Assembly (NCBI GenBank): GCA_009761415.1
Contig: QUOL01000010.1
Coordinates: 1,455,296-1,519,295 of the forward strand
Source of the DNA: Sarcomyxa edulis
Lineage: Eukaryota > Basidiomycota > Agaricomycetes > Agaricales > Mycenaceae
DNA length: 64,000 nucleotides
Reading direction: 5' to 3'
Shown in pieces: positions 1 to 50,555 of the stretch. The position numbers were made by a program, and so were the translations under genes. Each line of letters opens with the position of its first letter. The stretch's first letter is position 1. Under the pieces are notes generated by a model. The model was not told the origin of the DNA, made no database searches, and saw only the letters and a program-made list of their open reading frames with translations.

Positions 1-2575
<2,575 letters not shown>

Positions 2576-26657: not shown

Positions 26658-26663
26658 AACGCT
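26658..26663. repeat. Target site duplication of the outer element, left copy
   Basis: AACGCT occurs here and again at 50555-50560 across the outer element. The exact 4-6 bp limits are ambiguous because the last base overlaps the TG/CA ends of the LTRs. Confidence 0.7.
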
Positions 26664-28411
26664 GTGATGAGGACTGCGGCGCTAGGAGTAGATGTGCTAG
26701 ACTCCTAACTATAGTTCGCCTCTAGGGGGTAAGGTGACGTTTTCTCGGAGGGGATTTTACGTAGCGAGAAATCCTAATGCCCAGTGACTTGTGTTTGGAT
26801 AATGTGTTCGTAAGACGGTGGTGAGGTGGGTATGAGATGATGAGGTGTAAGGTAAGCTTCGGACTTGTAGGATCGTTCTCGGTAGGCCGTTTAGAGGCTT
26901 CGGACAGCTATAGGTTCGTTCTTGGAAGACCTACGAAGGCCTCGGATAGCTTTCGGAGAGCTGATCGATGCTTCGGACGGCTTATAAAACGTCTTCGGAG
27001 AGCTATCGAGGGCTTCGGACAGCTATAAGTTCGATCTTGGAGAACCTACGAGGGCCTCGGACAGCTTTTGGTGAGCTGACCGATGCTTTGTATAGCTATA
27101 AAAACGTCTTCGGAGAGCTATCGAAGGTTTCGGACAGCTCTGAACTGATTTCGGAGAGCTTCGAGGGTTTCGGACAGCTCTGGACTGATTTCGGAGAGCT
27201 TCCTTCGTTCCGGGAGTGGTACTGCCGACTGAATCAAGTCCTTTTTCTCTTGTTTTGACCGACTCCTGTAATCGTTCCTTGTCTCGGTTTCAGAAGTATG
27301 AGAAAGAGATAGAATTCCTATAGAGAGTAACTGGGTAGTTGGTCGATTCGGGTATGTTCCTCTGGTTCTCGTCCACACTGGTTCTATCTACCGTTCTCCA
27401 TGTCCTATCCTACTTTATATATGAATTCCTTCCCTGTCCTTGCCTAATTCTTCACCCCGAGTGCCATCCCAAGGTCCCCGAGATCTCCAATGATGAAACA
27501 GATCCGGTATTGGTTTTGATGTGTCCGAACCTCGCTCAGTGTGAAAGGTTAGGGCCTGAGGTGTTCTCTGAAAGCGTTGCAAGGTGAATTTGTGAAGGGA
27601 TGAAACATGTCCGAGTGAGCAGGATGATGGGGAGCTTCCGATAGATTTTTCCAAGATGCGACGGCCAAAGTTGTCCGAGAAGAGTGAATTTGATGTGGGT
27701 TGCTAGGCGGAGACCTGTAGTGTCTTTGTTAGCGGGCGATACCTCGCTTACAAGTGCTGTGTCATGTGATAAACACAGAGGGAAGAATATTCCGTAGCAC
27801 CACTTGGTCAGGGTGGACGGAGGTCTTAACGAGGCGTCCAGATGCATGGAAAGGTGTGAATTGAGATCACAATGTAAAGGGAATATGTCCGATTTGATAG
27901 GTAGAACAGCTCAGGGCAGCAAGCATCACGTTGGCGGTATGTCGACTGGTGGCAATGTTTTATCGGTGAAGTATCTCTCGATGAGGTCTTCTAGAGGTGA
28001 AAGGGAACCTGCTGAAACGATTTGGGATCTGTCCGAAGGATCTAGGGGGCTGCGGAGAGGTGATCGAGTACGTTGGGCCTTCGGTCAGGTGAAACGACGA
28101 TAGGGAATTGGGTTCTGGCGGTAGATTTCCTTCGGAGAAGTTGTTCGTGTGTGATTTCAAGTATTCCGAAACGTTCTGAGACGTGACCGAAGGCGGGTTA
28201 GCATTTCGTGAGTGGATGAAGAGGCCGCTTTCGGGGAGGAACCGTCAAGTAGTGGGTACTTGGTGTCTTTCAGTGTCCGGTCATTCGAAAAGTAAGTCGT
28301 TTGTGGTAATATCACCAGTATCTCTGTAGTTAGCTATGTCTGGGGAGTCGCATAAGAGTAGGTCGTTGTATAGTTGTCGATTCCTTGGCTGGGGATGCTG
28401 GCATCCTCACA
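26663..28411 (-). repeat. Outer element LTR, left copy (3' LTR by polarity)
   Basis: 1749 bp, matching 48807-50555 at a constant offset of 22144. The only difference I noticed is at 26670 (A) versus 48814 (T). Carries an array of TCGGA motifs near its plus-strand start. No protein-coding frame is supported; open frames in it do not resemble anything. Confidence 0.9.
26853..27200 (+). repeat. TCGGA-rich tandem array inside the LTR
   Basis: Thirteen TCGGA pentamers in about 340 bases, mostly in the contexts TTCGGACAGCT and TTCGGAGAGCT. Higher-order structure: a unit of 115 bp starting at 26898 is repeated at 27013, then a 40-bp unit at 27126 is repeated at 27166. The same array exists in the right LTR at 48997-49344. 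Confidence 0.85.
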
Positions 28412-28420
28412 CTTCCTCCT
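28412..28420 (-). promoter_or_regulatory. Candidate polypurine tract of the outer element
   Basis: On the minus strand this reads AGGAGGAAG and is immediately followed by the LTR start TGTGAGG. This is the position and composition expected for plus-strand DNA priming if the element's RNA is minus-strand. The other end of the internal region has no comparable purine run next to the LTR. Confidence 0.6.
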
Positions 28421-28570
28421 AACTTTTAAATATCGACCGTCCCCGGTCGATCATCCGGAGGGCAAACACAACAGCGTGTCCGTGACCGAAACAGGGCAAG
28501 GATGACCGGCCAAGGACCTATAAATTCCAAGGTCAAGACAGCCAGGGCTTTCCTGAAAGCAACAAGCCAA

Positions 28571-29509
28571 ATGGATCCCATAGCAAAAGAACTCTTCTTT
28601 ACGCGCTGCCTCGATCTGGACGGGATAGATGGCGATATTACGATGGCAACTTTCCTCGGATACCTGCGTAACAATATCCGTCCCATGGTTCACCTAGTCG
28701 TCAGCTGCATTTTTCAAGATGCTGTGGCAGACGTTCTCCTTCCGGAGTTCTCGAGTCACGGTGTATACACGTTGAGAAAGCACGTTAAAATCTTGTGCCA
28801 GCACATGGTGAGTGCGTGTGCGCCTTTCAGGGGGTCCGTGCTAATTGCGAAGGTTAAGGTATTCATGCTCAGACTTAGATGGGTACTGAAGGGGAGGTGC
28901 ATGGACGATACCACGGAGCCGTTTCCCAAGGAAGCAGTGACCGCCGTTTACCAGGTGCAGCGATGTGTCCACGTCGTAGGGTTTTCCGGGGATCAGGACG
29001 AGGACGAGGCACATAAGATCGACGTTATCTTGTACTTCATAGAAGAATATGCCCGCCGATCGACATTTGGCGTCGCTTTCGATTACATCGAGGCGGACCC
29101 GCGTGGTCGGTTCCATGCGCATGCCGTGTTGAAGAAGCATCCATACAGCGGTCCCAGGGTACATCGAGATGGTACGATTAGTACGGACAGGGGCAACAGC
29201 CTCGAAGGGGAAGAGAATCCGGCTAACAACGAAGACGAAGGCATATCCGTCATAAGTATTGCAACGGACGACGAGGACGAGGAAATGGAGGTGGCCGAGG
29301 TAGAAAGGGCCTTGTCCGGTAAGAATTCTGACACTTTAGCGGTGCGGCAACGAGCTGATCGGAGAGGCACAGTCCAGCCACTCGCGAGCTTGGCAACACA
29401 CGGGGCATTTCGCCTGCTTTTGGAGACGTTATCCGAAGAGGAGAGGAACGGTTTGATTGGCGGGGCAGCGATTATTGAACAGGGACTAAACGGCTTGTCG
29501 GGGGCATGA
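28571..29509 (+). CDS. Outer-element family protein 1 (unknown function)
   Basis: Start taken at ATG 28571 because a TATAAA at 28519-28524 lies 47 bases upstream and because the resulting N-terminus (MDPIAKELFFTRCLDLDG) lines up with the other members; an upstream ATG at 28502 lies before the TATA box. Exon 1 is 79 codons and holds the shared motif FLGYLRNNIRPMVHLVVS. A phase-0 intron of 51 nt (28808-28858, stop-free) follows HM; exon 2 starts VFMLRLRWVL. About 295 residues, longest of the family, with an acidic stretch DDEDEEMEVAEVE and an extra C-terminal domain (RLLLETLSEEERNGLIGGAA). No known domain recognised. Confidence 0.65.
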   Translation: MDPIAKELFFTRCLDLDGIDGDITMATFLGYLRNNIRPMVHLVVSCIFQDAVADVLLPEFSSHGVYTLRKHVKILCQHMVSACAPFRGSVLIAKVKVFMLRLRWVLKGRCMDDTTEPFPKEAVTAVYQVQRCVHVVGFSGDQDEDEAHKIDVILYFIEEYARRSTFGVAFDYIEADPRGRFHAHAVLKKHPYSGPRVHRDGTISTDRGNSLEGEENPANNEDEGISVISIATDDEDEEMEVAEVERALSGKNSDTLAVRQRADRRGTVQPLASLATHGAFRLLLETLSEEERNGLIGGAAIIEQGLNGLSGA

Positions 29510-29604
29510 GGCGGCGAGAAGAGGGAAGGGTTCGGACAGGTGATCGAGGGCATGCAGTCTTCATGTACATATAAACGACGAGTCCCGTCGTGTTGAAAAT
29601 CGAA

Positions 29605-30193
29605 ATGCCTGCCCGCAGTATGCAAATGGCTCGCGAGAGGCTCTGCGACTACTTCATGACGCTGAACGTCCCGTCCTTTATTCGACCCGTGTTCTATCCG
29701 CACGAGGGCTTCGATGGATTCTTTCGCAAACGCCTTCGTATGATGTTCGGTGTCATCCAGGCGACGCTTCCCCATAGGGTGACAGCATTTCCCGATGACA
29801 CCGATAGCGTTATCGGGCAGTATACGCTGTCGAGGCGGCTTATGCGGTTTTTCGTCGAGAACGTTGTACGGGCTTCCATCGTTTTTCAGCGGGGCAACGC
29901 AGAGATACTAAAAAAAATATCCTTCTGCGCAGGAACTCATCGTTGCATACCGTCAGCGGGCCAGGACCGATGCCAACGCTGCCGAATTTAAAATTCCTTC
30001 AGAGGTATCCCGTATGATGGAGTTCAGTCTTATCGTTTATGACAAGGTCGGATTTCATGGGGACTGGGCCCTCAGCAGCGTCGGTCAGAGGAGGGAAATG
30101 CTTCAGTCACTAAAAGATGAGGCCGACGTTAACGCTTCATTGACTGGCGGGGCAAAGGAGTATCCCGAATTTGAGGACCTGGTGTTCTGGTAA
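29605..30193 (+). CDS. Outer-element family protein 2 (unknown function)
   Basis: ATG 29605, 30 bases after TATAAA at 29570-29575. Exon 1 (29605-29865, 87 codons) contains GFDGFFRKRLRMMFGVIQA, the family motif; a phase-0 intron 29866-29932; exon 2 (29933-30193) begins ELIVAYRQRARTDAN and contains KIPSEVSRMMEF and FHGDWALSSV. 173 residues. Homology to neighbours is inferred from the shared motif, the intron position and the PSE block; no database family recognised. Confidence 0.62.
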
Positions 30194-30378
30194 GCAGGCG
30201 CCGTCGGTCTCGTTCTTTGGGCCCCTCAGAGGGATACTAATAGTCGGAAATTCGCATTTCAGAACGCACGCGTAGCGGGGAAGCTTTCCTGGATGTGACC
30301 GAGGGGGTTTTTGTCGTCGTTGGTACTTTAATGGGTAAACACTCCTTTCGCGTGCCGTGTTCAGAGATCTTGTAGTTT

Positions 30379-30746
30379 ATGGAATGCACTGTCAGTCCGG
30401 AGGGCAACAACGGTCTCGGGCAGCCGCCCAACCTCCTTTACAAAGGGTATCGATGTCCGATGATTCCACCAGGAGGCGAGTGAGATGAGAACGGAGAGAG
30501 GTTATCAATGCTTTCAGAGCTTTTCTCCTTTACAATTTCGCTATATCGCTCAGTGGCCTGGTCATCATTTCGTTCTTCCGTAGCCTCGCCGTTATACGAT
30601 GGCAGGATGATCTTCTCGTCCCGTTCAATAACTCGGCCGGCGCAAGATGCTGTTTTCTTCTTCAAGATGATGCAGTTGCATTTCTACAGCGCTCAAAGCC
30701 GACAGCCGTCAAGCGCCAGTGGCTTCATGAAGTCATGGCCGTTTAG
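30379..30746 (+). CDS. Possible small two-exon gene with one hydrophobic helix
   Basis: ATG 30379 opens MECTVSPEGNNGLGQ; a very short possible intron (30480-30517, 38 nt) restores a frame with a hydrophobic stretch LLYNFAISLSGLVIISFF and a basic tail ending QWLHEVMAV, stop 30744-30746. The intron is shorter than any other here, its phase differs from the family, and no TATA box was seen, so this may be a decayed family member or chance. Confidence 0.3.
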
Positions 30747-31180: not shown

Positions 31181-31776
31181 ATGTCGCATGTCGTTAGTTC
31201 ATCGTTTACTCAAGCTCTCCGAGACGAGTTTTTGTCGTACGCTCATCCTCCTGAAGTTCTTGCCGGGGATTTCGCTCCTACCGAGGGCTTTACAAACTTC
31301 CTTCGATTCCGCCTCCGCCCTATGGTGGAGATCGTCGAGCGGGGGTACGCGGCTTATCTTATAACGAGTTCCCCAAGAGACACTGTTGAACCAATCATAT
31401 GGAGCGAGACGAAAGGCTGGTTCCGCATCGTGTTGGATCATTTGGTAGGCGTCCGTGTTTCACTCGATGAGCTTCGGAGTGTTAACCTTACGTCTTCTAG
31501 GATGCCATTCTACGGTTTAGGGATAGGGTGACGGCAATTGGCCGAGGAGACGAGGCCGTGGTTCCGTCAGAAGCGTTGCGCCTCGCAAGCATGGTGCAGC
31601 TATTCCTTATCCATCACGGAGTTGAGCTCGGGTACGATGAAGATGTACTTGTGAAGAGGAAGGATTTAACGAAGGAGTTCCTTTGGTCTATCGTCCCTGT
31701 AATGCACCGAGAGGCAGTTGCCGTGGAATTTCCGGAGTTCGTGATACGGTTGGCAGGGGAGGGTACGGGCAAGTAG
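31181..31776 (+). CDS. Outer-element family protein 3 (unknown function)
   Basis: ATG 31181. Exon 1 31181-31444 (88 codons) with the family motif GFTNFLRFRLRPMVEIVERG; phase-0 intron 31445-31500; exon 2 begins DAILRFRDRVTAIGRG, then VVPSEALRLASMVQLFLIHH and ends RLAGEGTGK. 179 residues, probably all-helical. A TATA box lies at 31132-31137. Function unknown. Confidence 0.65.
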
Positions 31777-31861: not shown

Positions 31862-32580
31862 ATGAAAATTATGGAACCCCTACACCAAGTCCTTTTGAAC
31901 ACTCTTGCCCAAGAGGCAGCAACGTTCGATATCCTCGATCGTGACGGAATGATTCACTATCTCAGGTGCCTCCTGCGCCCCGCTGTCGGCCTCGTTGCCG
32001 ATTTTATATTTCGTGAACTCGGGCCTGATGGCTACTTTGTAGCTTTAACTGGTCGCGAGAGGGTTCCCTACTACTGCAATGCGCAAATCGTGTTGCTCCT
32101 CGCGGTACGTTGGTCTAAACTCGACCCTTATTGATTTCATCGTTTGACGGGTTTTCACTTGATCGGTAACAGGTCCACTTCCACAGCCAGTGGCAGGAGC
32201 TAAACAAGCAGGACAGGCGTTTATACATGATTCCGTCCGAGATGAATAGAACGATCAGCCATTTGCGCTTGATTTGTCGGGCTGTCCGAATTCAGCCAGC
32301 AAGCCCCATTCATTGGGAGGTCGAAGCCGTCCGAGCTCTTACCGAGCTTAGCATACGCGCCCTGGCAGCTTACGCGTCGGCTGAGGATGCCTTCGATTGG
32401 CCGGAGTACGAGAAGCCCGGGGATGCCGCGTTGGAAAGCGCGATGACCAGATCGATCCGTCTCGATCTCCTCGAAAGGGTCGTGCCTAAGCGCGTTGTCG
32501 TAGTCGAGGGGGTGTCCGAAGGTGCAGGATATAGCGACGCGGAGGACTGGCCAGGGTCGGAGGAGGAAACGACGGAGTAA
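31862..32580 (+). CDS. Outer-element family protein 4 (unknown function)
   Basis: ATG 31862, 47 bases after TATAAA at 31815-31820. Exon 1 31862-32104 (81 codons) contains MIHYLRCLLRPAVGLVADFI; phase-0 intron 32105-32172; exon 2 begins VHFHSQWQELNKQDRRLYMI and continues with PSEMNRTISHLRLICRAVRI. Acidic C-terminus (DAEDWPGSEEETTE). 216 residues. Same design as its neighbours; function unknown. Confidence 0.65.
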
Positions 32581-32681: not shown

Positions 32682-33147
32682 ATGTCCTTTATTCTCCGTT
32701 TGTCTGCAAATCGCTTTCCCGAAAATCCCCAGGATCCCGACCTCGAAAATGAGAGGTCTCCGACCACCATCTGGTCTCGGTCAATTCGTAGCCTCCTAGG
32801 CATCGTTCATCTCTCCGTTAATGGGAGGTGTCCGACGGATGTTCCTCTCGAGGAAAGGCTCTGGGTCAGGACCCTCCTCACCCGGATCGTCAATTACGTA
32901 GTAAGCGGCTCGCTTGTTTTTCCTTCATCGTTCCTCTTTCAACATCGTCCGTCCAGCATCAAGCTATGAAGCTCCGAGCCTCCGAGGCCATTAAATCAGG
33001 CTCTTGGGATACCATTCCGGTTCCTGCTCAAGCCACCACTACCGTCGCCATGCTCGAGTTCTTTCTGAAGAACTTTGGTTTCGAGGGGGACTACGTTGCG
33101 GTCAACGTTAGGAACGTTGGGTATCTTTTATCGTCGGTGAAGAGCGA
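32682..33147 (+). pseudogene. Outer-element family gene 5, 5' portion (split by the chromovirus)
   Basis: ATG 32682, 52 bases after TATAAA at 32625-32630. Exon 1 32682-32900 (73 codons, with SIRSLLGIVHLSVNGRCP); phase-0 intron 32901-32956; exon 2 begins HQAMKLRASEAIKSG and runs into FGFEGDYVAVNVRNVGYLLS, where the chromovirus LTR interrupts it at 33148. The remaining coding sequence continues at 45428. As it stands the gene is broken. Confidence 0.7.
33143..33147. repeat. Target site duplication AGCGA of the chromovirus, left copy
   Basis: AGCGA here and at 45423-45427 flank the inner element exactly at its TG and CA ends; five bases is usual for Ty3/gypsy integration. Confidence 0.95.
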
Positions 33148-33630
33148 TGTGGTGGTCGTACGACTAGTCCCACAAATATTTGAGGACACGATTCGAGTCT
33201 GACGAGAATCTGACGGGCTAAGATCTAATGGGGACGGGAGTCTCACGAGACGTGCTAAGTCCAGGCAATCCGTGGACAACGTACACGTCTCCGTCTTCTC
33301 AGGCAATCCGTGAGAAGAGAGACTCGGACCGTCCTACGGATAGATCGCAGAAGATCAGCTTCGACACTCCTATTATAGCACTTACCTGAGTAAAGCCCCT
33401 GCCCGCAATTCCAGTCTAAGGCTGTAGATTGAGGCCCTTGGGCAGTTGGGGATGATGATGGTAAGATAAGAGTGATGTTATTCTTGCGTCACAGCGCGTT
33501 ACACAGATAGGTAGAGAATATGAAATAGAATCGTGACTGGTCGTGACGCTCGGAATATCGAGTCTGAGAGTAAGAAAGTGAAACGTATCCAAAAGAAGAA
33601 TAGGAAGAAAGTAATTGTATATTCGCCACA
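33148..33630 (-). repeat. Chromovirus 3' LTR
   Basis: 483 bp, TG...CA ends, identical by eye to 44940-45422. Contains the repeated motif AGGCAATCCGTG twice. Confidence 0.95.
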
Positions 33631-33644
33631 AACCCCCCCACTCT
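33631..33644 (-). promoter_or_regulatory. Chromovirus polypurine tract
   Basis: Minus strand reads GAGTGGGGGGGTT directly before the 3' LTR, starting just after the third ORF's stop codon at 33645-33647. Confidence 0.8.
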
Positions 33645-36272
33645 TCAGGCCTCGATAGGATCCCAAACTTCCGGAACGGCGAGGTCACTGAGAGCACCGC
33701 GATTCCAAGTTTCCTTGTAACCCGTCTGAAGACGCGTCAAGGCTTCCGAAAGTACCGCCGTCGTAACCACCTTCTCCGGAGCAAATTCCCCACGATTATC
33801 TGAACGGAAGAATTGGGCCCAATCGCCCGGACTACGTGACTCGGCAGCGCCATTCTCCATCTCCAAGTGAAGGTTGTTGAAGATCCGCTCACAGTCTTCG
33901 TTCCACTCCCCGCTGTAGTGACGACAGGATGCTAGGAGGATCCTCTCGTCCGGCCATAGAGTGCGGTCCGTCGAACGGGATCCCGTTCCTCCTGCGGTGT
34001 ACCCCACGACTGTTTTCAACTCGTCGGGTGACATCTCGTCGCATCGGAAGAAGAGGAAGCTTTCCTTGTCGGACCAGCCACGCTGATGCAACGTGACCTG
34101 AATAGAGGGTCCATACATGAATTCCCGCACCAGTCTAAGGCCGCTGAACTTGCGAGCAATCCAAGAGTACGGACCGCCCAGACCGATAAGAGCCCGAGCA
34201 TGAGGGCGCTGCAATACGTCCAGTAGATTAACCTTATACTGTCGGTACAGCTCGTCGCTGGGCAATGCGGTCGATAAAGCCCGGCTCGGGGCGCCGGTCG
34301 AGTAGTAAACGTCGGCGACGAAGTCGCGAGTTTCGATCCCAGGCGGCAAGAAAATGGCGTTGTCCTTGGGATCAGTGCAGATTCGGAAACGTAGGCCGTG
34401 CTCGATAGCGGTGACAAGGACCTTCCTGATATCATCGACCTTCTCCCAGCAGTTGGCCCAGTAGCGCATTCTAAACTCGCTGCTGGGTTCGACGTAAAGG
34501 TAGCCGTAGCGTAACAGATCGGCGCGCCAAACCCAGGAAGCAGGGATCGAGAACGTGGAGCCTGTTGCTACCAGGGGACGACCCCATTCCCTCAGATCTT
34601 CCAGGAAGGCCGCCTTGCCCGCGTAGTGTTCTTGTCCCGAGGGAGGAGGAAGCGCGACGCGAATAGTGCCCCGTAAGGGACCTAGATGCAAACGATCCGC
34701 TAGTTTGTGCGAGGAAGTCATCCGAGGTGCTGCCATGGCGTTTACCCACGAAGTCGGAGCTGGTTTACCCACCTCCAGACTCCTTGAGCTGCTCGAGCTG
34801 TCGCGGTCCGATTCCCGAGCACTCCTTCTCTGAGCCCTCGTCTTTCGTTTCTTGCGACGTTTCTCGGACAAGGGTTCAGGAGGCGGAGGTCGCGGAGGGT
34901 TATTGTCTCCCATGACCACGTCCTCCTGAGACTCTGCAGAATCAGGATCAGTGTAACCGAGGCGGGAGTCGATAATCGCTTTGTCGAGAGCTCGAGCCGA
35001 CAACTCGACCAACGATGGCAGAGGCTCCTTCGTAAGCAAAAGTCCGGTTTCCAGAGAGTATACCTGTCCCGGCTGGGGAGCGTACCGAGCCTTGTAAACT
35101 TCTCTAATGACCGTGACATCGTCCTCGTCCAAGGTGGCGGTGGTGAAGTCAATGTCGCTGCTACGCAGCGGGCGCGATCGCCAGAACAGCACGACGTTCT
35201 GACCTTCTTCTTCCAAAAGGGCGTAATGGTAACGGTTGAAGTAAGCGTCCACTTGCATATCGTTCGATAATGGACGTCGTCCCCAGCCCGGGAAGTCGGC
35301 TACGGCCGAAGTGTACTGCAGTCCTTCCGGCACTGGAGAAGCTCTGAAGCGAGGAGTTGGGTTTCTTTTACGCCCCAAGTGATCATACTCCTTTAGCCCC
35401 CAGAACTTATCCAGGAATCCCGGGATCTGCGCCGCAAGCCACCCGCTAGTGGATCCCGTTGTCATCAGATAATCGCGATAAGCGTCGTACATGACGGGCG
35501 AGTACAGATGGAAGCGCGGGTCCACCATCTCTACGATCGTCCACGGGTAGAACACCGGGACGTCATTCTTAATGAGATGGGCAATGTTGATCGATTTCCA
35601 ATCGCGGGCTAGATCGATAAGTACCCCACGGCGGCGACGATTGCGTATAGGAAGCTCTTCAATGGTATCAATGATTGCGGAGCGCAGTCCCTCTTTCCAA
35701 TCTCCCGCCGAGTTAACCCACCACGAGAGAAACCCGATGCTCGACAACGCGCTTCGCTTGGCTGTGGCCGCGGCTATTTCGACGTCGAGGGCTGAGAGAT
35801 ACTCGTAGACAAAGCGGGTGTGGTCCACTCCTTCGGGTCGGGGGGTATTGCGACCGTACTCGGTTCCTGTCTGAATCGCTAAGCAGCAAGAATCCAGATC
35901 GACGAGAAGAGTCTTCATCGCCATAGCCCACTTGGAGGGCATCTGGTACTTCATTCCCCGATCCACCGGTTCGGGCATCACTGACCGGTTCATGTCCAGC
36001 AGCCCTTCTCGATAATCTTCCAGATGGACGGGAATCCAAGCCTCCCAGTGTTTGTTGAGACGATGCCAGTTGGGCTCCAGCGCTGAGTCCATTTCAAGCA
36101 GGACGCCGGTAGGGCCGACATCAGACGAGCCGATCTCCTTGTCTTTATACTCGTAAGCCTCAAGAGGTACGCATTGCCCTCCCGCATTGTACTCGAGCCA
36201 ATGTTCGTTGTTGATGACATGCACCGAAGGGAGCACGATTTCAGCACGCGAGTTGATGAAGAATTGATCCAT
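33645..36272 (-). CDS. Chromovirus third ORF, unknown function (875 residues)
   Basis: Open frame from ATG 36272 (MDQFFINSRAEIVLPSVHVI) to just before the polypurine tract, the position env genes take in other retroelements. Two globular parts flank a disordered linker: residues about 1-450 (with DYREGLLDMNRSVMPEP, SWWVNSAGDWKEGL and FHLYSPVMYDAYRDYLM) and about 540-875 (with LRYGYLYVEPSSEFRMRYWA and GGPYSWIARKFSGLRLVRE). The linker holds a proline run and a strongly basic SEKRRKKRKTRAQRRSARE, a likely nuclear signal. No signal peptide or membrane helix was noticed, so an envelope protein is unlikely. Between it and Gag-Pol is a 556-base spacer; whether it is made from its own promoter or a spliced RNA is unknown. 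Confidence 0.85.
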   Translation of the reverse strand: MDQFFINSRAEIVLPSVHVINNEHWLEYNAGGQCVPLEAYEYKDKEIGSSDVGPTGVLLEMDSALEPNWHRLNKHWEAWIPVHLEDYREGLLDMNRSVMPEPVDRGMKYQMPSKWAMAMKTLLVDLDSCCLAIQTGTEYGRNTPRPEGVDHTRFVYEYLSALDVEIAAATAKRSALSSIGFLSWWVNSAGDWKEGLRSAIIDTIEELPIRNRRRRGVLIDLARDWKSINIAHLIKNDVPVFYPWTIVEMVDPRFHLYSPVMYDAYRDYLMTTGSTSGWLAAQIPGFLDKFWGLKEYDHLGRKRNPTPRFRASPVPEGLQYTSAVADFPGWGRRPLSNDMQVDAYFNRYHYALLEEEGQNVVLFWRSRPLRSSDIDFTTATLDEDDVTVIREVYKARYAPQPGQVYSLETGLLLTKEPLPSLVELSARALDKAIIDSRLGYTDPDSAESQEDVVMGDNNPPRPPPPEPLSEKRRKKRKTRAQRRSARESDRDSSSSSRSLEVGKPAPTSWVNAMAAPRMTSSHKLADRLHLGPLRGTIRVALPPPSGQEHYAGKAAFLEDLREWGRPLVATGSTFSIPASWVWRADLLRYGYLYVEPSSEFRMRYWANCWEKVDDIRKVLVTAIEHGLRFRICTDPKDNAIFLPPGIETRDFVADVYYSTGAPSRALSTALPSDELYRQYKVNLLDVLQRPHARALIGLGGPYSWIARKFSGLRLVREFMYGPSIQVTLHQRGWSDKESFLFFRCDEMSPDELKTVVGYTAGGTGSRSTDRTLWPDERILLASCRHYSGEWNEDCERIFNNLHLEMENGAAESRSPGDWAQFFRSDNRGEFAPEKVVTTAVLSEALTRLQTGYKETWNRGALSDLAVPEVWDPIEA

Positions 36273-36828
36273 CCTGCTAGCTTCCAGATTTCCGTCTTCC
36301 AGGCAATCCTTGAAAGACTCAATCGGCCTCAGGAGGAACAGTCAGGCAATCCGTGACTATCTAACCCTTCTGAGGAGCTGGGGGGAGAACGGGAAGAAGG
36401 AGGTTATCGCGTTGAATTGAGGCTTTTATGATTGTTGCGACTTCCAATTTCCAATTTGCCACTCGCCGCATGACACGTATAGGTTCCGTAAGTTCCCTCG
36501 GTTCCGAAGTCGTGATAGGCCTTGGTCGCGTGGTAGGGAAGAATAGGGTGTTTCCCAGTTCGATGCGTTCGAGAGGCCGGGGAGTCAACCGAGTCGACCA
36601 AGACAGAGGAAAGCGGCCGAGTTAGAACCTGAGAGGGAGACGAAGGATGTTGAAGCGAAGAGGCGAAGGCAAAAGAAAAGAAAGTAACTATTAATTTGGT
36701 AAGGGGGAAAGAAGATGCATAAGAAGGATGGAAGAAAAGAACAATCGCAAAATGTGAAAAAATAAAACAACTAGATAGTACAACGAAAGAGAGGAACGGG
36801 TATACAGAGTTAGTACTCTCCTTTGTCC
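36273..36828 (-). other. Spacer between Gag-Pol and the third ORF
   Basis: No conserved frame. Near the third ORF start it carries AGGCAATCCGTG (36344-36355) and a variant AGGCAATCCTTG (36300-36311), the same motif found twice in the LTR, so it could hold a promoter or processing signal for the third ORF. Confidence 0.45.
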
Positions 36829-42800: not shown

Positions 42801-44865
42801 AGGGTAGGTCGTCTTGCTTCAGTTCCGGCTTAATGGTGGGTAATGCCGTTCCATAGGGCGCTGCCATCATCGTCTGACGACCAGCTGCCAGGGGTCCCCC
42901 CGGCGCGCCTTGCGAGCCGAAAGGAGGAGGGTACCCTCCTGGAGGACCATTGCCTCCTGGTGGTCCATTGCCCCCAGGTGGTCCTGGGTCATTTCCTCCA
43001 CCACCACCACCGCTACCACCGCCTACGAAGGGTTGGTTGGGCGGCGGAGGCGGAGCAGCGTAATCGTCGTAGCCCGAGAACGCATAACCACCTAGAGGAT
43101 TGTTGTTCCCTCGATTCGGACGAGGTGTGTCGGCCTCGCGTCGTGGGGCATTGTATTCCCCCGAAGCTTCACCTTCTCGTTCTACCGGCGGGTTGGAAGC
43201 AGCCCTGCTACGCGGTCCTTGATCTAAGGGAGTGCCAAAATAGCTACGCTCAGTGCCGCTAGAGTCAGTATCTTCTTCAGAAGCTTTGTTACCGGGAGCG
43301 CTCATTCTAACGTCTCTGGGATTTGGTTCGTAGGGCTCCCTCCGAGGTTGACCATAACCTGTCCCTCCCGGCGGTTTTCCGTAACCGAAAGGAGTGGCCG
43401 CTCCCCAAAGGGTATCTGGCTGTTGCCACGGAGTACTCTCCCGATCTCCCACGGGAGGCCTTGCGAAAAAAGACTTTTCGTCTTTGAATTGAGTCTTTTC
43501 CCCTAGCAAAGGGCCTGCTTGGTGAAACGCGCTAGCGTCAACGTTCGGCGTGAACGTTGAAGCTCCCGACTGTCGTCTTATTTCCGGATTTCTGCCCTCG
43601 TGACGGTCTTTACTGGAACCTTGGTCGAAAGCGACGCTCTTACGACCCGTTTTGTTTCTGCGAGTCACGCCAGAGTCGTCCTCCGGGAGTTGAAACTCTT
43701 TTCCAGCTTTGTAACTGGTTCTAGCTCCGTAGTACTTCGTTTGCTTATCACCCCTTTCATCGTAGTAAACCGTAGCGGGCGCGTTCTCAGCCTCTCTCAA
43801 GGGAAACGACAGCAGCAAAGGGGAAGGCGGCGAAATGACTTCGGTGATTGACTTTCCTTGTTGCAAAGCCGCTTGCTGATTGGCCGACAGATGGTTCGCT
43901 AGATGGGGAACATTCTGGTACAGATAGGTCATCCTCTGAACCGGGTTCGGAGATCCCGGTAGAGGGTCATAGGTGGCTGGAATGGTGGAAGCCGGCGAAA
44001 AGACTTCGATAGAATCCGGACTCTCGTATTCTCGATTGTACTTATCGAAGTACTTCTGAGCTAGATCTAAACGGATCCTGATAGAACTCCAAGCCGCGCT
44101 CAATTCTTCCAAAGTATCACATCCCTTTAGTGAGGACATGAACGTATCGTAGGGATCTACTATGTAGTAGGCAGCTCGTCCAGGGACTAGAGCTGAAGCT
44201 CGCCTGCATAGATCCTGCATCTCCTTCACCGTTTTCTCGAGAGTACGACCGAGATTAGGCTCCAACGTGAACCGAGGTTTTGTCCCCGATCTTGAAAACC
44301 CGGAATCTATCACATCCTTCTTCCCAAGAGCGTTCTTCTTGCCTAGCAACGCCACCCGAGAAGAAATCGACGACATAGCTTCGGTTTCTTGATGAAACTC
44401 CAGGCGTAGGGGGGCCATGCTCACGCTCGGTGGTTGTCCGTTTCCACCCTTAAGAAACATGAACGAATTCTCTGGTAATTCCTCCGCCGCAGTTACGGTG
44501 GAAGACATGTTTCGGGGACTCGAGATTCGACTTCCCACAGGAAACAAAACCCTTTCTAGGGGCGTTCGTCCTGATTTCGAAGTAACGAAGCTCTCGTCTG
44601 ACGAAGAATCTTGGTCGGCGTCCTCTCTCGGGCCCAACGACGTCCTCGATCGCAACGGGCGTTTGTCTAGTCGAGCTAAGAAAAGAGCCTGTTGATGTTC
44701 CTTAGAGGCTAACTCTTCTTCCACCGTTGGTAACGGTTCCTTGTTGCCTAAGCGCTTGCCCTTGGACTTCGGTCCAGGTAACGCGGGAATCCGAGACGCC
44801 GTAAGGCGAGATCGATTAAAATGTCCGCGAGGACGAGGGTCGGTGGAATCAGACGAGTAAATCAA
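36829..44865 (-). CDS. Chromovirus Gag-Pol polyprotein
   Basis: One frame of about 2678 codons with no frameshift between gag and pol. Open to 44865 but without ATG there; the first in-frame ATG is at 44508 (residue 120, MSSTVTAAEEL), so the start is uncertain. Order: disordered N-terminus with Gly/Pro runs; capsid-like Gag around 700-850; zinc knuckle CKVCGSKNHWDKEC near 961; aspartic protease DSGAD near 1218; reverse transcriptase about 1590-1790 with FCVDYRKLNAV, MPFGLRNGPSIFQ and catalytic YIDD near 1731; RNase H YTDASDEALG near 1877; integrase with the HHCC finger near 2250, then D, D and E in MDFIVNLP, VTDRDPRW and HPQHDGQTEVVNR; C-terminal chromodomain about 2612-2670 (YLVRWEGYGPQFDTWEP), which in this group guides integration to marked chromatin. 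Confidence 0.96.
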   Translation of the reverse strand: MIYSSDSTDPRPRGHFNRSRLTASRIPALPGPKSKGKRLGNKEPLPTVEEELASKEHQQALFLARLDKRPLRSRTSLGPREDADQDSSSDESFVTSKSGRTPLERVLFPVGSRISSPRNMSSTVTAAEELPENSFMFLKGGNGQPPSVSMAPLRLEFHQETEAMSSISSRVALLGKKNALGKKDVIDSGFSRSGTKPRFTLEPNLGRTLEKTVKEMQDLCRRASALVPGRAAYYIVDPYDTFMSSLKGCDTLEELSAAWSSIRIRLDLAQKYFDKYNREYESPDSIEVFSPASTIPATYDPLPGSPNPVQRMTYLYQNVPHLANHLSANQQAALQQGKSITEVISPPSPLLLSFPLREAENAPATVYYDERGDKQTKYYGARTSYKAGKEFQLPEDDSGVTRRNKTGRKSVAFDQGSSKDRHEGRNPEIRRQSGASTFTPNVDASAFHQAGPLLGEKTQFKDEKSFFARPPVGDRESTPWQQPDTLWGAATPFGYGKPPGGTGYGQPRREPYEPNPRDVRMSAPGNKASEEDTDSSGTERSYFGTPLDQGPRSRAASNPPVEREGEASGEYNAPRREADTPRPNRGNNNPLGGYAFSGYDDYAAPPPPPNQPFVGGGSGGGGGGNDPGPPGGNGPPGGNGPPGGYPPPFGSQGAPGGPLAAGRQTMMAAPYGTALPTIKPELKQDDLPSWDGDFGTAIKYFWDVQEIAALGGWMPQALGYWLWKKLEAGSDIQNWWQMLDPGRKAFMRSHYLNYLEVIKREYLGKRWQQRMNLEFGQQRFRQRGYENETPQGFITRRIMYTRMLAAADNGGPVEVYVIMTRAPLSWHTTLNLDTILDSATLYSRVVEQSDALVFASRGSSANVVTTDSLAGQLRRLGIEVDSKPRFGSRRANAIQSAGESVAGPGGEDNDDLEMIVKTLANDDHVINEAYQVLKKTRLPPKGGYPFPKNDSVTTQMGRLPPSPCKVCGSKNHWDKECSNWNVYLERQRRSANLVIARSDEDETVYASAYGALLNRRLVEEESQHQDEGGDQSGFESAFPSTSEASKSFNDEVTECKPEEEGSRGSFSKKVFMEEVEDESWEEHRRMPKAERGLLDVDEETQTSERRSHDGEEEATKTAYFSRTNTADEYYWENNGSMPPAGEYSSEMEEEPLEREGEDPPLPPTFDVRNYPVPTEDDVPVRLPKRRYRPSGSSAVGVSVLMTRGWVSSVKDAMIEIRIDSGADVSLISEDLYNSLRSPPPIQQGLKMQLWQLTDKTSSLKGYVTLPIFMRLSEGVLLETEAEVYVVPGMTVPILLGEDYQQTFELSVERNVERGTHLVYSRTPYSVPVEGATRSPDFGRMRQSAYLSAHFVRAKLHRRNKARRRQLKRRTEEEKALVRAADDYKLKPHECKPVRVTGDLGEERDWLVEKTLLAGNSHTYFAVPNVLISSSKPWVPICNPTDQPRYVRKGEIIGSLKDPALYFDTPRTQEHLNLLSWETLRLQTILEANMAASSSVPTSSQSEDEIAPTDEDYGPKTAAMPDLADQPSSQMKLSLDVGDIPDHLQAQVWEMLERRQGAFGFDGRLGHHPAKVHIRTVDGQVPISVPMYGTSPAKRMVIDEQIDKWFSQGVIEESRSPWSAPVVIAYRNGKARFCVDYRKLNAVTIPDEFPIPRQSDILSSLSGAQVLSSLDALSGFTQLEMDPDDVEKTAFRTHRGLFQFRRMPFGLRNGPSIFQRVMQSVLAPYLWIFCLVYIDDIVIYSKTFEDHIVHLDKVLEAIEGSGITLSPSKCHLFYSSILLLGHKVSRLGLSTHLEKVRAILELERPTKVSQLQTFLGMAVYFSAFIPFYASTCSPLFQLLRQGAKWTWGAEQEWAFKATKDALRMAPVLGHPIEGLPYRLYTDASDEALGCALQQIQPIAVRDLKGTRVFERLRKAFDAGLPPPKLTTSLSLKIDDSPKTGVWAADFEDTIVHVERVIAYWSRTFKGAETRYSTTEREALGAKEGLVKFLPFIEGEKVILVTDHSALQWARTYENANRRLAAWGVVFAAFPDLEIVHRPGRTHSNVDPLSRLPRGPPIHLSPVMDQEVPIVTDSSRVEALERPFSSSSPAKRATFVAWDLDDCLEGVKSVWAVTRSQSRPEPHASSFNGGEVIQDLNIEQGIRDENISSQLTDASDSYWAASNPPPNLHVAMAPELRTRFREGYENDAFFRRIWKEASSTPEKWIPGCRFFQDEDGLLFFANADYQPRLCVPKSLQPFILGEVHDGPAQTAHGGPEKLYGKLSQKFYWKRMKTDVLSFCRSCDVCQKTKPSNFNRYGYLIPNPIPNRPYESISMDFIVNLPMSNGYNAVYVVVDRLTKHARFVPTTTAITSEEFASLFVKEIVCRFGLPDSIVTDRDPRWTSDFWKATAGHLKTRMSLSSAHHPQHDGQTEVVNRQLGIMLRAYVSQDKDSWSDWIHLLEFAYNGAVHSSTGSSPYFLLYGFEPKTPADFLNPHASASLRELAMNGDAKGFLNALNMHREHARQAIAEAQNDQARTYNKGRRPPPEFKEGSKVLVNPHTLEWIESKGEGKKLVQRWIGPFEVMKRVNPNVYRLKMSNKDPGSPVVNVEHLKAYVESPKDLGARTILPETRTKRPEEPEYDVEKILGHRFDKRRNRILYLVRWEGYGPQFDTWEPAINVKNAPLALERYRKSQNQVLPSEG

Positions 44866-44939
44866 AGCGGAACGCAGGTTTTGAACGTTCGTTTGATAGC
44901 CAGCCAGGTCGTCGGAGCGTGTCCGGATTTGTCCACCTT

Positions 44940-45422
44940 TGTGGTGGTCGTACGACTAGTCCCACAAATATTTGAGGACACGATTCGAGTCTGACGAGAA
45001 TCTGACGGGCTAAGATCTAATGGGGACGGGAGTCTCACGAGACGTGCTAAGTCCAGGCAATCCGTGGACAACGTACACGTCTCCGTCTTCTCAGGCAATC
45101 CGTGAGAAGAGAGACTCGGACCGTCCTACGGATAGATCGCAGAAGATCAGCTTCGACACTCCTATTATAGCACTTACCTGAGTAAAGCCCCTGCCCGCAA
45201 TTCCAGTCTAAGGCTGTAGATTGAGGCCCTTGGGCAGTTGGGGATGATGATGGTAAGATAAGAGTGATGTTATTCTTGCGTCACAGCGCGTTACACAGAT
45301 AGGTAGAGAATATGAAATAGAATCGTGACTGGTCGTGACGCTCGGAATATCGAGTCTGAGAGTAAGAAAGTGAAACGTATCCAAAAGAAGAATAGGAAGA
45401 AAGTAATTGTATATTCGCCACA
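44940..45422 (-). repeat. Chromovirus 5' LTR
   Basis: 483 bp, TG...CA ends, matches 33148-33630. On the minus strand it is followed by AAGGTGGACAAATCC; TGGACAAATCC is the best primer-site candidate but I cannot match it to a tRNA. Confidence 0.95.
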
Positions 45423-45427
45423 AGCGA
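45423..45427. repeat. Target site duplication AGCGA of the chromovirus, right copy
   Basis: Second copy of the duplicated host pentamer directly after the LTR end. Confidence 0.95.
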
Positions 45428-45897
45428 GATGGTTGCCCAGGCGCGTTTTACTTATTTCTTGGTTCTCATCCTTTGTTGATTTATTTCTTTTCGTCCTTTT
45501 CTAGGTCGGATACGTCGGGACCGCCCTGGATTTTGATGGTTTTGAGTCGTCCGATGCGTACAACGTGTACGGCGTGCTTCCCGAAATGAAGCAGCAGCAA
45601 GTCAACGACTTGCTCAGATCGCGGGCGGCTTTCGTTCCCAATCCTATTCTTCCTGCTCCTCAATATCCTCTTGTCCCCTTCGTCGCGAGGTTTCCCGTGA
45701 AAGAGGGCTTTGAAGAGGTCCGTCTTCACGGAGACGTTCCCGATCCTCGTCTCGGAGGCCTCCACCAAGTTCATTTCGGCCCCGGAGCTTTCGGACAGGT
45801 AGATCCTCGGAACGCTGCGACGCGTGGGAGAGGTCGCGGAGGGGCAAGGGCTAATCGTCGAGGAGCTGGAGCGGTACCTGATACTACCATTCTGTAG
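45428..45897 (+). pseudogene. Outer-element family gene 5, 3' portion
   Basis: Continues the frame interrupted at 33147. A few codons follow the duplication, then an intron (probably starting GTTGCC and ending TTTTCTAG near 45503) and an exon beginning VGYVGTALDFDGFESSDAYN, with VLPEMKQQQVNDLLRSRAA, an FPVKEGFEEVRLHGDVPD block and an Arg/Gly-rich tail (TRGRGRGGARANRRGAG); stop near 45897. AATAAA-type signal at about 45936. Whether the tail is nucleic-acid binding (RGG-like) is inference. Confidence 0.6.
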
Positions 45898-46584: not shown

Positions 46585-48457
46585 ATGAGATCGCCGAGGT
46601 ATGGAATCGCTTTCGAACTTTATCGATCAAATCTCTCTCGCCCTCTGCCCATCACCTTTCCAGCACCAAACGCGCCTCGATCACCTCTCCCATCACCTCC
46701 TAAGACCACTCCAATGGCTCCACCATCGTCAGCGTCCCAGACCGCCCCCGATTTCACGTTCTCCGAGGCCTTCAATTTCGCGCTATCCGGTGGCCTCCCC
46801 ACCACCAAGGTTCCAGCACAAGTTTTGGCCTCTATGAGGTCGACACGAAGGATTTCAGGTGCCGAGTATGGTCTGATTGAGGCGCTTTGTCCAGCTACCG
46901 CGAGAAGTCGCGAGGAACTCCACTCGGCTTGTGTGGCCTTTCTACACATCGGATGGACGCCTCCATTCCCTCCCGTGTTCGACGATTTCCCTGCCTTGGA
47001 TGACGATATCATTGGCTTTGTTCGCCAGCTGGTTGTTATTCCCGACTTTTTCTTAGAGGCGCTCGAATATAATCTCCCCGCGCGTCGCACTCCCCTCTTC
47101 CTTCCTGCTAAGGAAGAGACTCCTGCTCCGTGGTACGGTAGCTTTGAAAAGATACTGGGGACTTCCGAGTTTCCCAACTTGTCCGAGGACGAGATCGACG
47201 AGCTTGGTAAGTCAGTTCCCATTTTCCCGTCCTCCTTTGACTGATTCCGATTTATTCTTTTTAGCCGAAGATACCGATTCCGGTCCTAGCGGCGTCGCTA
47301 CAGTTCACGCGACAGATCCACCCCCAGCGACCATCGGTTCCGCGGTCAACCCCGAGAGTTCCGAGGGAGACGTATCGTCTCCTGAAGTGAGGGTCAGGCA
47401 TCCTCGCGGTGTCAAGCGCCCAAGGGAGGAGTTTAGTACCGACATCGTTCATCCTCGCGTCGAAGTTATAGGTTCTTCCAAAATTCGCGTGGTCCCTATC
47501 AAGAAAACCCCGGGCATTTCTTCAAAGAGAGCAGGTCGTATTTTAAAGGCCCATCAGCCTTATTTCATCCGTCACCTAGTACGTTTTCTCCCTTTTGTTC
47601 TAACTCTTTCTAAGCCCCCTATTTTTCTTTACAGGACTGGCGTTGTAGCGCGTGTATTAAGAACAACGTGACCTGCAACGGGCATCGTAGCCACGCCTGC
47701 GACCGGTGTTTTGCTCGAAGGATCGGCTGTGATATACACGAGGGCGAAGGCCTCCTCGACCTTTCCCAAGCGATTCAACTGGGGGAAATTGTTATCGCCC
47801 CAAAGAAAACCGCTCCCGTCTTCGAGACTTCCAACAGTCTCCCTGGCCCTTCGACTATCAGCAAGCGCCAGGAAATGCCTTCGAAAGGTAAAGGGAAAGG
47901 AAAGGCTCGCGAGACTTCACCGGTTGTCGTCGAAGGATCCCAGTCCGCGTCTTTGAAAATACGTGGTGCGTTTTGTTCCAGGGGTCGCGTTTCCCTTGAA
48001 TTTACTGCTTTCTTTATTCGTAGTACCCAAGCTTGTTGGTGGTCACCATGCTGCGGAGTCAGCACCCAGCGATACTTTGTCCGAAATTCCAATTTCTTTT
48101 GGTGAGATGCGCATTCCCGAGACCCGCAAGACCGTTCTTCAGCAAGAACCCGCGAGCCGATTCGAAGGTTTTGATGATACGGGTATTGTTGAGCCATCCG
48201 GTTCTCCTGGACCTTCCTCGATCAATCCCCCGTCCGTCTCCCAGGGTCAACAGGCCACAGGTCGTCGAGAAAAGTGGAAGTCAATGGTTGACGGCTTGAA
48301 GGTCAGGATACTTGACGGCGCCGCTGGTGTCGAGGTTTTCGGTAAGCTCGCCCCGGTCATCCGCGATCAGTTGTCGGGTGTTATCGACGCCGCAATATCG
48401 CAAGTTGAGGACCAATACGGGTTTATTTTCGAGGAGGAGCAGGCCGATACCGCGTAA
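46585..48457 (+). CDS. Outer-element protein with a Zn2Cys6-like cysteine cluster
   Basis: Start is either ATG 46585 or ATG 46713 (MAPPSSASQTAPDFTFSEAF); the second looks more natural. Four exons with introns near 47206-47265, 47578-47634 and 47966-48023, all in frame. The third exon opens DWRCSACIKNNVTCNGH, then SHACDRCFARRIGCD (about 47644-47730). The six cysteines follow C-x2-C-x6-C-x7-C-x2-C-x6-C, which satisfies the fungal Zn2Cys6 binuclear-cluster spacing, although the basic recognition loop is in the second half. Around it are a helical N-terminal domain (SGAEYGLIEALCPATARSRE), a basic stretch (RHPRGVKRPREE) and a helical C-terminus (FGKLAPVIRDQLSGVIDAAI). Likely a nuclear DNA-binding protein; it may equally be a structural zinc protein of the element. 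Confidence 0.65.
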
Positions 48458-48786
48458 AACAGTAGTTCGGATTGAAAATAATATTTTGTTTCCTATGTAT
48501 TTTATGAGAAAATAATCCACGATTTTGCTTCTTTTAATTTCGGAGACCGAGAGACGTATATTCGTTTTAATATAGTCGTTGGAGGTAGTGTCCGTGGATA
48601 GGGTAGAGAAGTAGTTCTTTTGTGCGCGATGTCTATGATTGGAAGGAAGCGTCTGGGATAAGACCCATCTGTGATTTATCGATGGTAGTAGCGGTGAACG
48701 GAGCAGTTTCTTTGGAGAGTTTGTTTTACGGATATTTTAACGGATAATCGCGGTATTTGGAAGTCCTAAGAAGAGGCTTTCAAACC
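48458..48786. other. Spacer before the right LTR
   Basis: 329 bases of AT-rich DNA downstream of the Zn2Cys6-like gene. On the minus strand it would be the 5' leader of the element's RNA. No gene seen. Confidence 0.4.
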
Positions 48787-48804
48787 CCCTCGCGGTGGGC
48801 TCCA
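48787..48804 (-). promoter_or_regulatory. Candidate primer-binding site of the outer element
   Basis: On the minus strand TGGAGCCCACCGCGAGGG begins 2 nt after the LTR end (..CATCACA). TGG is the complement of a tRNA CCA tail. I cannot name the tRNA. A comparable TGG site is absent just inside the other LTR. Confidence 0.5.
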
Positions 48805-48806
48805 GT

Positions 48807-50555
48807 TGTGATGTGGACTGCGGCGCTAGGAGTAGATGTGCTAGACTCCTAACTATAGTTCGCCTCTAGGGGGTAAGGTGACGTTTTCTCGGAGGGGATT
48901 TTACGTAGCGAGAAATCCTAATGCCCAGTGACTTGTGTTTGGATAATGTGTTCGTAAGACGGTGGTGAGGTGGGTATGAGATGATGAGGTGTAAGGTAAG
49001 CTTCGGACTTGTAGGATCGTTCTCGGTAGGCCGTTTAGAGGCTTCGGACAGCTATAGGTTCGTTCTTGGAAGACCTACGAAGGCCTCGGATAGCTTTCGG
49101 AGAGCTGATCGATGCTTCGGACGGCTTATAAAACGTCTTCGGAGAGCTATCGAGGGCTTCGGACAGCTATAAGTTCGATCTTGGAGAACCTACGAGGGCC
49201 TCGGACAGCTTTTGGTGAGCTGACCGATGCTTTGTATAGCTATAAAAACGTCTTCGGAGAGCTATCGAAGGTTTCGGACAGCTCTGAACTGATTTCGGAG
49301 AGCTTCGAGGGTTTCGGACAGCTCTGGACTGATTTCGGAGAGCTTCCTTCGTTCCGGGAGTGGTACTGCCGACTGAATCAAGTCCTTTTTCTCTTGTTTT
49401 GACCGACTCCTGTAATCGTTCCTTGTCTCGGTTTCAGAAGTATGAGAAAGAGATAGAATTCCTATAGAGAGTAACTGGGTAGTTGGTCGATTCGGGTATG
49501 TTCCTCTGGTTCTCGTCCACACTGGTTCTATCTACCGTTCTCCATGTCCTATCCTACTTTATATATGAATTCCTTCCCTGTCCTTGCCTAATTCTTCACC
49601 CCGAGTGCCATCCCAAGGTCCCCGAGATCTCCAATGATGAAACAGATCCGGTATTGGTTTTGATGTGTCCGAACCTCGCTCAGTGTGAAAGGTTAGGGCC
49701 TGAGGTGTTCTCTGAAAGCGTTGCAAGGTGAATTTGTGAAGGGATGAAACATGTCCGAGTGAGCAGGATGATGGGGAGCTTCCGATAGATTTTTCCAAGA
49801 TGCGACGGCCAAAGTTGTCCGAGAAGAGTGAATTTGATGTGGGTTGCTAGGCGGAGACCTGTAGTGTCTTTGTTAGCGGGCGATACCTCGCTTACAAGTG
49901 CTGTGTCATGTGATAAACACAGAGGGAAGAATATTCCGTAGCACCACTTGGTCAGGGTGGACGGAGGTCTTAACGAGGCGTCCAGATGCATGGAAAGGTG
50001 TGAATTGAGATCACAATGTAAAGGGAATATGTCCGATTTGATAGGTAGAACAGCTCAGGGCAGCAAGCATCACGTTGGCGGTATGTCGACTGGTGGCAAT
50101 GTTTTATCGGTGAAGTATCTCTCGATGAGGTCTTCTAGAGGTGAAAGGGAACCTGCTGAAACGATTTGGGATCTGTCCGAAGGATCTAGGGGGCTGCGGA
50201 GAGGTGATCGAGTACGTTGGGCCTTCGGTCAGGTGAAACGACGATAGGGAATTGGGTTCTGGCGGTAGATTTCCTTCGGAGAAGTTGTTCGTGTGTGATT
50301 TCAAGTATTCCGAAACGTTCTGAGACGTGACCGAAGGCGGGTTAGCATTTCGTGAGTGGATGAAGAGGCCGCTTTCGGGGAGGAACCGTCAAGTAGTGGG
50401 TACTTGGTGTCTTTCAGTGTCCGGTCATTCGAAAAGTAAGTCGTTTGTGGTAATATCACCAGTATCTCTGTAGTTAGCTATGTCTGGGGAGTCGCATAAG
50501 AGTAGGTCGTTGTATAGTTGTCGATTCCTTGGCTGGGGATGCTGGCATCCTCACA
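48807..50555 (-). repeat. Outer element LTR, right copy (5' LTR by polarity)
   Basis: 1749 bp direct copy of 26663-28411, including the TCGGA array at 48997-49344. Confidence 0.9.

Follow-up and report, generated by a model that had tools for sequence, protein, structure and literature searches.

A probable gag-pol-less copy of a Ty3-type retrotransposon family with spliced antisense genes in Sarcomyxa edulis

What kind of retroelement would carry its genes backwards? The question is raised by a stretch of 64,000 nucleotides of the Sarcomyxa edulis genome (assembly GCA_009761415.1, contig QUOL01000010.1, positions 1,455,296 to 1,519,295), here called the window, in which two long terminal repeats (LTRs) at 26663 to 50555 enclose a block of plus-strand genes. 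An earlier sequence-only reading had proposed an LTR element with no pol, mobilised in trans, that keeps spliced genes intact by holding them antisense to its genomic RNA. Our analysis revealed that the outer element, so called because a second element is nested in it, is a recently inserted LTR element copy, and it is probable that this copy is a gag-pol-less, trans-mobilised member of a Ty3-type family with antisense accessory or regulatory genes. The ends of the outer element are as follows.

26659..26662, no strand: target site duplication (TSD) ACGC, left
26663..28411, minus strand: LTR (3' LTR in the sense of the genomic RNA)
28412..28420, minus strand: polypurine tract AGGAGGAAG, adjoining the 3' LTR (genomic-RNA sense)
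48787..48804, minus strand: primer binding site, complement of the tRNA-Lys(CTT) 3' end plus CCA
48807..50555, minus strand: LTR (5' LTR in the sense of the genomic RNA)
50556..50559, no strand: TSD ACGC, right

The two outer LTRs (26663-28411 and 48807-50555) have TG/CA ends and showed 1 mismatch in 1749 positions, and ACGC stands on both sides, which confirmed the near-identical 1749-bp repeats with matching flanks described earlier. The primer site TGGAGCCCACCGCGAGG is on the minus strand and starts 2 nt inward of the right LTR. Alignment of 48787-48804 to the tRNAs of the organism revealed that its complement, without the CCA, is the 3' end of two tRNA-Lys(CTT) genes with a 30-nt intron apiece, which were detected by ARAGORN with introns permitted (the default run detected none). 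The pattern had 52 matches in the genome with up to two mismatches, 45 of them exact, against 4 for a reversed control pattern. The purine tract that abuts the left LTR lies on the same strand as the primer site, as the sequence-only reading had it. Because the primer site and the purine tract, together with the gag-pol of the siblings presented below, point to the minus strand, the genomic RNA was assigned to that strand and the plus strand was ruled out as its source. TG...CA LTRs with a short target duplication, and a tRNA primer site and a purine tract on one strand, are shared with Ty3/gypsy LTR retrotransposons. Once the nested element is subtracted, the outer copy measures about 11.6 kb, without gag-pol.

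The contents of 19 primer-site places, namely 18 of the 45 exact sites (read as 10-kb stretches) and the window, were judged by LTR match, open frames and tblastn. Six of them (L023, L025, L033, L034, L038, L039) hold the same LTR with gag-pol in the sense orientation; eight (the window, L026, L029, L031, L032, L035, L036, L037) hold the same LTR and sequence of the type of antisense gene F, with no gag-pol in the part read, L037 being interrupted by another copy; three (L024, L028, L030) belong to a sister family and two (L027, L040) to other families. The LTRs of the six siblings are 94-99% identical to those of the window, with the same primer site, and the same antisense genes were present in the two that were read across the block. 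In five of the six, gag (869-878 amino acids) and pol (1269-1280 amino acids) are uninterrupted; the gag of L033 is interrupted. Pfam searches identified a gag protease in gag, with DUF4100 below the cut-off, and RNase H (RT_RNaseH) and an integrase zinc domain (Integrase_H2C2) in pol. The Ty3/gypsy arrangement of RNase H before integrase, with gag-pol in the sense of the primer site, was found in the siblings and not in the window copy. The claim of a family without pol was thereby overturned, as an autonomous relative with the same LTR and a sense gag-pol, which the sequence-only reading had itself named as evidence against its proposal, occurs at six loci.

In two sibling copies, C1 (L042, L023) and C7 (L033, L043), antisense genes B-E follow pol and a distant F stands beside pol, while gene A and the second LTR of these copies were recognised by DNA matches and in L006; the C1 copy is 17.5 kb long. 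In the sense of the genomic RNA, the autonomous layout would be LTR, tRNA-Lys primer site, gag, pol, antisense F-E-D-C-B-A, purine tract and LTR. The sibling gag was found in 27 genome rows, of which 13 cover 2334-2401 of 2401 nt at 98-100% and 8 belong to the sister family (74%). The ratio of nonsynonymous to synonymous differences per site (pN/pS) was 0.03-0.13 for sibling gag and pol (five copies), pol being more divergent than gag (pS 0.04-0.18 versus 0.02-0.06). Protein searches with gag returned three relatives (P0002-P0004, 62-87%) among 7993 candidates scored. An LTR tree did not separate autonomous from non-autonomous copies, so that sequence would pass between the two kinds, or each kind would have arisen from the other more than once.

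At least 40 LTR matches were found in the 35.6-Mb genome, with 40 of 110 candidates scored, so that copy counts are lower bounds, and the first 2 kb of the internal region gave 28 full matches among 32 rows. Further copies with distinct flanks do exist: a 4-bp duplication was common to both ends in seven of the eight LTR pairs tried. The eighth, the C11 pair 652620/685596, was rejected as a single element, its flanks being different (CCGC and ACGC) and its LTRs lying 33 kb apart with 31 differences in 1737, and was judged to be two elements. Of six pairs with a matching TSD, five showed 0-2 differences in about 1748 positions and the sixth, in C8, showed 20 in 1745; between the LTRs of this C8 pair (L008, L035) lie another LTR and a second, broken copy of the antisense block. 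Insertion sites read VCGY in 15 of 15 cases (ACGC 6, CCGT 3, CCGC 2, GCGC 2, GCGT 2), a pattern present at 1.8% of window positions outside the element; the target-site preference is strong and centred on CG.

The genes carried antisense to the genomic RNA, with promoter positions given relative to the ATG, are the following.

28571..29509, plus strand: antisense gene A; TATA at -52, TGTCCGT at -94
29605..30193, plus strand: antisense gene B, intron 29866-29932; TATA at -35, TCGGACA at -73
31181..31776, plus strand: antisense gene C, intron 31451-31500; TATA at -49, TCGGACA at -97
31862..32580, plus strand: antisense gene D, intron 32105-32172; TATA at -47, TGTCCGA at -79
32682..45897, plus strand: antisense gene E, exons 32682-32900, 32957-33136 and 45505-45897; TATA at -59, TGTCCGA at -169
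46714..48457, plus strand: antisense gene F (523 amino acids), introns 47207-47264, 47579-47634 and 47966-48023

The sequence-only reading had counted six or more intron-containing plus-strand genes; six are present, and their codon-position bias and intact frames exceed chance. In gene A, a probable intron (28808-28852) is indicated by a 2-nt indel in one copy and an in-frame stop at that place in the sister family; a second intron near 29319 is possible, as is a longer form of gene B ending at 30375. The gene B intron showed indels of 1-4 nt among copies. Across seven to eight copies, pN/pS was 0.14 for A, 0.00 for B, 0.09 for C, 0.11 for D and 0.05 for E (first two exons), with no stops or gaps in A-E among the copies counted, which are those other than L008 with less than 5% gaps per gene. 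Because A was counted as one exon including the probable intron, with insertions relative to the window dropped, its value of 0.14 includes non-coding sites and masks a 2-nt insertion of L005; L026, whose gene A is disrupted towards its end by frame-breaking deletions, is outside the copies counted for that gene. Variable codon sites were mostly third positions (14 of 14 in gene B), and exon 1 of gene C was open in 31 of 31 family matches. Chance open frames were ruled out for A-F by the codon-position bias and the length-variable introns, and, as far as comparison between copies goes, protein-level selection was shown for all six genes.

Genes B and C are paralogues (26% amino acid identity, E 2e-7), gene C matches sister A (26%, E 3e-4) and gene B matches sister C (32%, E 3e-6); A, B and C at least therefore represent one gene family, to which the link of gene D is weak. 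Gene C had 78 genome matches, 62 at 94-100% and 16 at 26-34%, whose locations agree by eye with copies of the two element families, and no host-gene copy was apparent among them. A protein search with gene A returned one relative (P0001, 79%) among 3979 candidates. Introns of antisense genes can persist, as the genomic RNA contains them in complementary form, and the earlier suggestion that introns survive in this way fits the sibling sequences, five of six of which have continuous gag and pol frames; every intron found is antisense.

Gene F departs from this uniformity. It was open in all seven complete non-autonomous copies (the partial L037 is outside the F counts), with three introns of 54-67 nt that vary in length and have GT-AG ends; the genome holds 17 rows of non-autonomous F, 14 of which, the window among them, cover about 2.0 kb. 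Pairwise identity of the F unit was 76-99.9% among non-autonomous copies, against 97-99% of A-E to those of the window, and its synonymous divergence was 0.2-1.05, save for one near-identical pair, against a pS of 0.04-0.05 for A-E. The ratio of nonsynonymous to synonymous substitution rates (dN/dS) was 0.10-0.18 in 20 of 21 pairs and 0.32 in the near-identical pair. Positive selection on the whole of F was rejected on these values; 40-residue windows gave 0.02-0.34, and 0.85 was reached only in the last 9 residues. When the other five siblings were compared with L033, all were 93-100% identical before the drop point; from the end of pol onward into F, identity dropped to 72-89% in L023 and L034 and held at 94-100% in two others, and L039 remained at 98% until unrelated sequence began. 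L023, the only one readable past F, returned to 96-99%. At a resolution of 200-300-nt bins, the divergence is thus limited to the F unit in both kinds of copy, and by this measure F is far older than the sequence around it: either several alleles would have been kept by selection or F would have been swapped in from other lineages. Sibling F and window F share 24-43% amino acid identity in matched stretches, in all siblings. Since gag-pol-less copies keep F under selection (dN/dS 0.1-0.2), F probably acts mainly in favour of the copy or lineage it belongs to and would not simply be common property of all copies. Several leader types were also observed after the primer site, though the LTRs are near-identical (30 rows, 19 places); leader type tracks the F allele only partly, with L029 as the exception.

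The sister family (L028, L030) has a different LTR body, with the same LTR end and primer site and a related gag. Its antisense genes also follow pol, with E at 45-46% over longer stretches, and a gene with a cysteine pattern stands nearer pol, in the F position; the equivalence of this gene to F rests on position and on the cysteine pattern judged by eye. The sister copy in C12 has the order D (27.5%), C (35%), an extra gene, B (33-41%) and A (39%), followed by the LTR. The order of A-E is therefore equal in both families, with 27-50% amino acid identity over longer stretches. Eight copies of the E region cover the whole of the query, at 99-100%. The sister copy in C2 stood outside the comparison of antisense blocks, as similarity stops about 900 nt past the primer site, where another element begins. 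The extra sister gene (L047, gene-strand 2522-3231), between B and C, had no counterpart seen in the window family; its stretch LAEHVRPLLAYI resembles, by eye, a motif of the other genes.

Short boxes with a CG core are a further feature of both families. Outside the LTR array, no 7-mer of the element is more frequent than TGTCCGA, with 16 occurrences against 10 for the runner-up. The LTR holds 10 copies of it (shuffled mean 0.22) and A-E hold 7 (0.71); the sister LTR and the sister block have none. CCGATCG occurs 21 times in the sister LTR (0.53) and 21 times in sister A-E (1.43), against 0 and 1 in the window family. Neither the nested element nor 24 kb of nearby sequence had more of either box than the shuffles, and these counts showed the box to be family-specific and enriched in LTR and antisense block. 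Near 27421 the LTR contains a TATA box on the minus strand, preceded upstream by five copies of TGTCCGA, and a second box group (TCGGACA) lies at 26900-27176. In A-D, a TGTCCGW box stands 73-97 nt before the ATG, upstream of the TATA at -35 to -52.

In the mechanism we propose, a minus-strand RNA started in the LTR would be packaged and reverse-transcribed with gag-pol supplied in trans by siblings. A-F would be transcribed off the plus strand, so that their introns would escape splicing of the genomic RNA and survive, and would encode accessory or regulatory proteins of the element. F may bind the CG-core boxes in the LTR and the antisense promoters, a guess made because of its cysteine spacing, of where the boxes lie and of the change of box from one family to the other; it would serve mainly the copy or lineage that carries it, whereas gag and pol could come from other copies. 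The gene-carrying, trans-mobilised retroelement of the sequence-only reading is retained in so far as the copy is recent, gag-pol-less, with antisense genes and presumably mobilised in trans, and is given up as a pol-less family. A further step, possible but rather doubtful, is that the element runs a regulon of its own, in which F is a diverging DNA-binding regulator of the CG boxes, old F alleles are kept as at a self-recognition locus, and copies must bring their own F.

Several results weigh against this interpretation. We infer trans-mobilisation of the outer copy from its young LTRs and absent gag-pol. In sibling pol, RVT_1 and the integrase core (rve) were unmatched in Pfam at E 0.1. 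The cysteine spacing of F resembles, by eye, that of the Zn2Cys6 fungal regulators, but its Zn_clus match in Pfam stayed below the cut-off (13.2 bits against 21, E 0.1, 12 residues), no relatives of F were found at E 0.01 among 7994 candidates scored, and the sister gene in the F position had no similarity to window F detectable by sequence. A-E had no Pfam match above the cut-off (E scanned in part), and the predicted structure of gene A was uninformative (pLDDT 36). As for the promoters, a box lies within 100 nt of the ATG only in A-D (in A as TGTCCGT) and not in E or F, gene F lacks a TATA within 260 nt, its box lying at -240, and in the sister family box and TATA were found within 150 nt at two of four starts tested. 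A host factor, rather than F, could be the binder of the box.

An independent LTR family without any pol, carrying captured genes backwards, would agree with the lack of gag-pol outside the nested element in the window and with six further copies (L026, L029, L031, L032, L035, L036) read from F to the primer site without finding it. We give it almost no credence, however, as the siblings carry gag-pol, the LTR tree mixes both kinds of copy, and the gene C matches all fall by eye in the two element families and none is host-like. It is also improbable that the importance of the plus-strand frames lies in antisense RNA, for instance double-stranded RNA tuning silencing, rather than in proteins. 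Overlapping sense and antisense transcription would yield such RNA, a role discussed for plant elements (PMC7264820); against it stand the third-position bias, the pN/pS of 0-0.14, F frames open over variable introns, and amino acid identity of 27-50% between families. That A-F are passenger genes kept for the benefit of the host was considered similarly unlikely: A-E do each have a TATA box, and copies that lack gag-pol still keep A-F, but gene C was found only inside these elements, the box is common to the LTR, and the block is kept in two families.

The island of divergence at F has a stronger competing explanation, namely repeated replacement of F by recombination with distant lineages, with LTR and A-E homogenised by template switching, whose probability falls only a little short of even. 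It would account for the confinement of divergence to the F unit in both kinds of copy, for the low identity of window F to sibling F, and for leader types that differ between copies too. However, non-autonomous F alleles form a graded series of pairwise identities, which would need many donors, and leader and F are not always linked, L029 having the window leader type with an F that is 78.5% identical.

The preferred interpretation, a gag-pol-less member of a Ty3-type family with antisense genes, has partial precedents. LARD and TRIM derivatives have no coding capacity, whereas A-F are open and constrained. HBZ of HTLV, a retrovirus of people, is a spliced antisense regulatory gene of a retroelement and the one antisense gene of that virus. 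The comparison is one of likeness only, and no relationship to the present element is claimed. Boty-like elements of Botrytis with an antisense gene, brtn, were reportedly described by Zhao and co-workers in 2011. PMC7264820 mentions an antisense promoter of HTLV and describes, for plants and for fungal Boty, antisense genes located between pol and the 3' LTR, so that the earlier statement that no family like this had been described was too strong. Single antisense genes are known from Boty (brtn), Grande, RIRE2 and Retand, according to the parts consulted of PMC7264820, PMC11963269 and PMC8365987. Boty-like elements are thus fungal LTR elements with an antisense gene in the same position (PMC7264820, PMC8365987); the passages on Boty name one antisense gene, compared with six here, most of them spliced, and a gag-pol-less derivative keeping the antisense gene was not found in them. 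Plant Retand shares a long region between pol and the 3' LTR, antisense open reading frames (ORFs), a proposed DNA-binding role and some non-autonomous members (PMC11963269, as seen in part). Its antisense ORFs mostly encode a TRP28 domain, and introns go unmentioned in the part of that account seen, whereas the antisense genes here are spliced and no TRP28 match was found by Pfam in A, B, C, D, F or the scanned part of E. Maize Grande (gene23) and rice RIRE2 (aORFs) also have an antisense gene between pol and the 3' LTR, gene23 having its own promoter and transcription opposite to gag-pol (PMC7264820, in the passages seen); their hosts are plants, and the element here has six such genes in a block. 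Several additional ORFs are also carried by two other sorts of retroelement, the Terminons of bdelloids and LTR elements with captured ORFs; in the excerpts seen (PMC5408684) Terminons use Athena-type reverse transcriptases and the ORF types differ (GDSL, DEDDy). The active transposons of Marasmius oreades, by their description in the part seen of PMC9674265, are not this family.

In a literature search that covered few subscription journals, no fungal element was found that carries several spliced antisense genes as a block. New here are the six spliced antisense genes, the family-specific CG boxes in LTR and block, and the deeply polymorphic F. LTR elements with antisense genes are known, and the six genes described here are kept by protein-level selection, also without gag-pol. 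This, together with the conservation of five of them in order in a second family, suggests a function that the element cannot borrow. The boxes common to LTR and antisense block offer a directly testable regulatory model, and the deep polymorphism of F, set in an element that is uniform elsewhere, prompts the question whether transposon copies recognise their own kind.

The remaining feature of the interval is the nested element, which sits within the second intron of gene E.

33148..45422, minus strand: nested complete Ty3-type element, TSD AGCGA; not part of the outer element

Its LTRs (33148-33630 and 44940-45422) are 483 bp long and identical, and its gag-pol (36829-44955, minus strand) is one frame of 2708 amino acids with reverse transcriptase, RNase H, integrase and chromodomain. 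The earlier statement that gag and pol are missing thus holds for the outer copy alone and not for the interval as a whole. An extra frame of the nested element (33645-36341, 898 amino acids), in the same sense and downstream of pol, matched no Pfam family at E 0.1. The identical 17-nt tRNA-Lys(CTT) primer site was also observed near position 2440 in L027 and L040, which represent two more families and whose LTR ends are unrelated.

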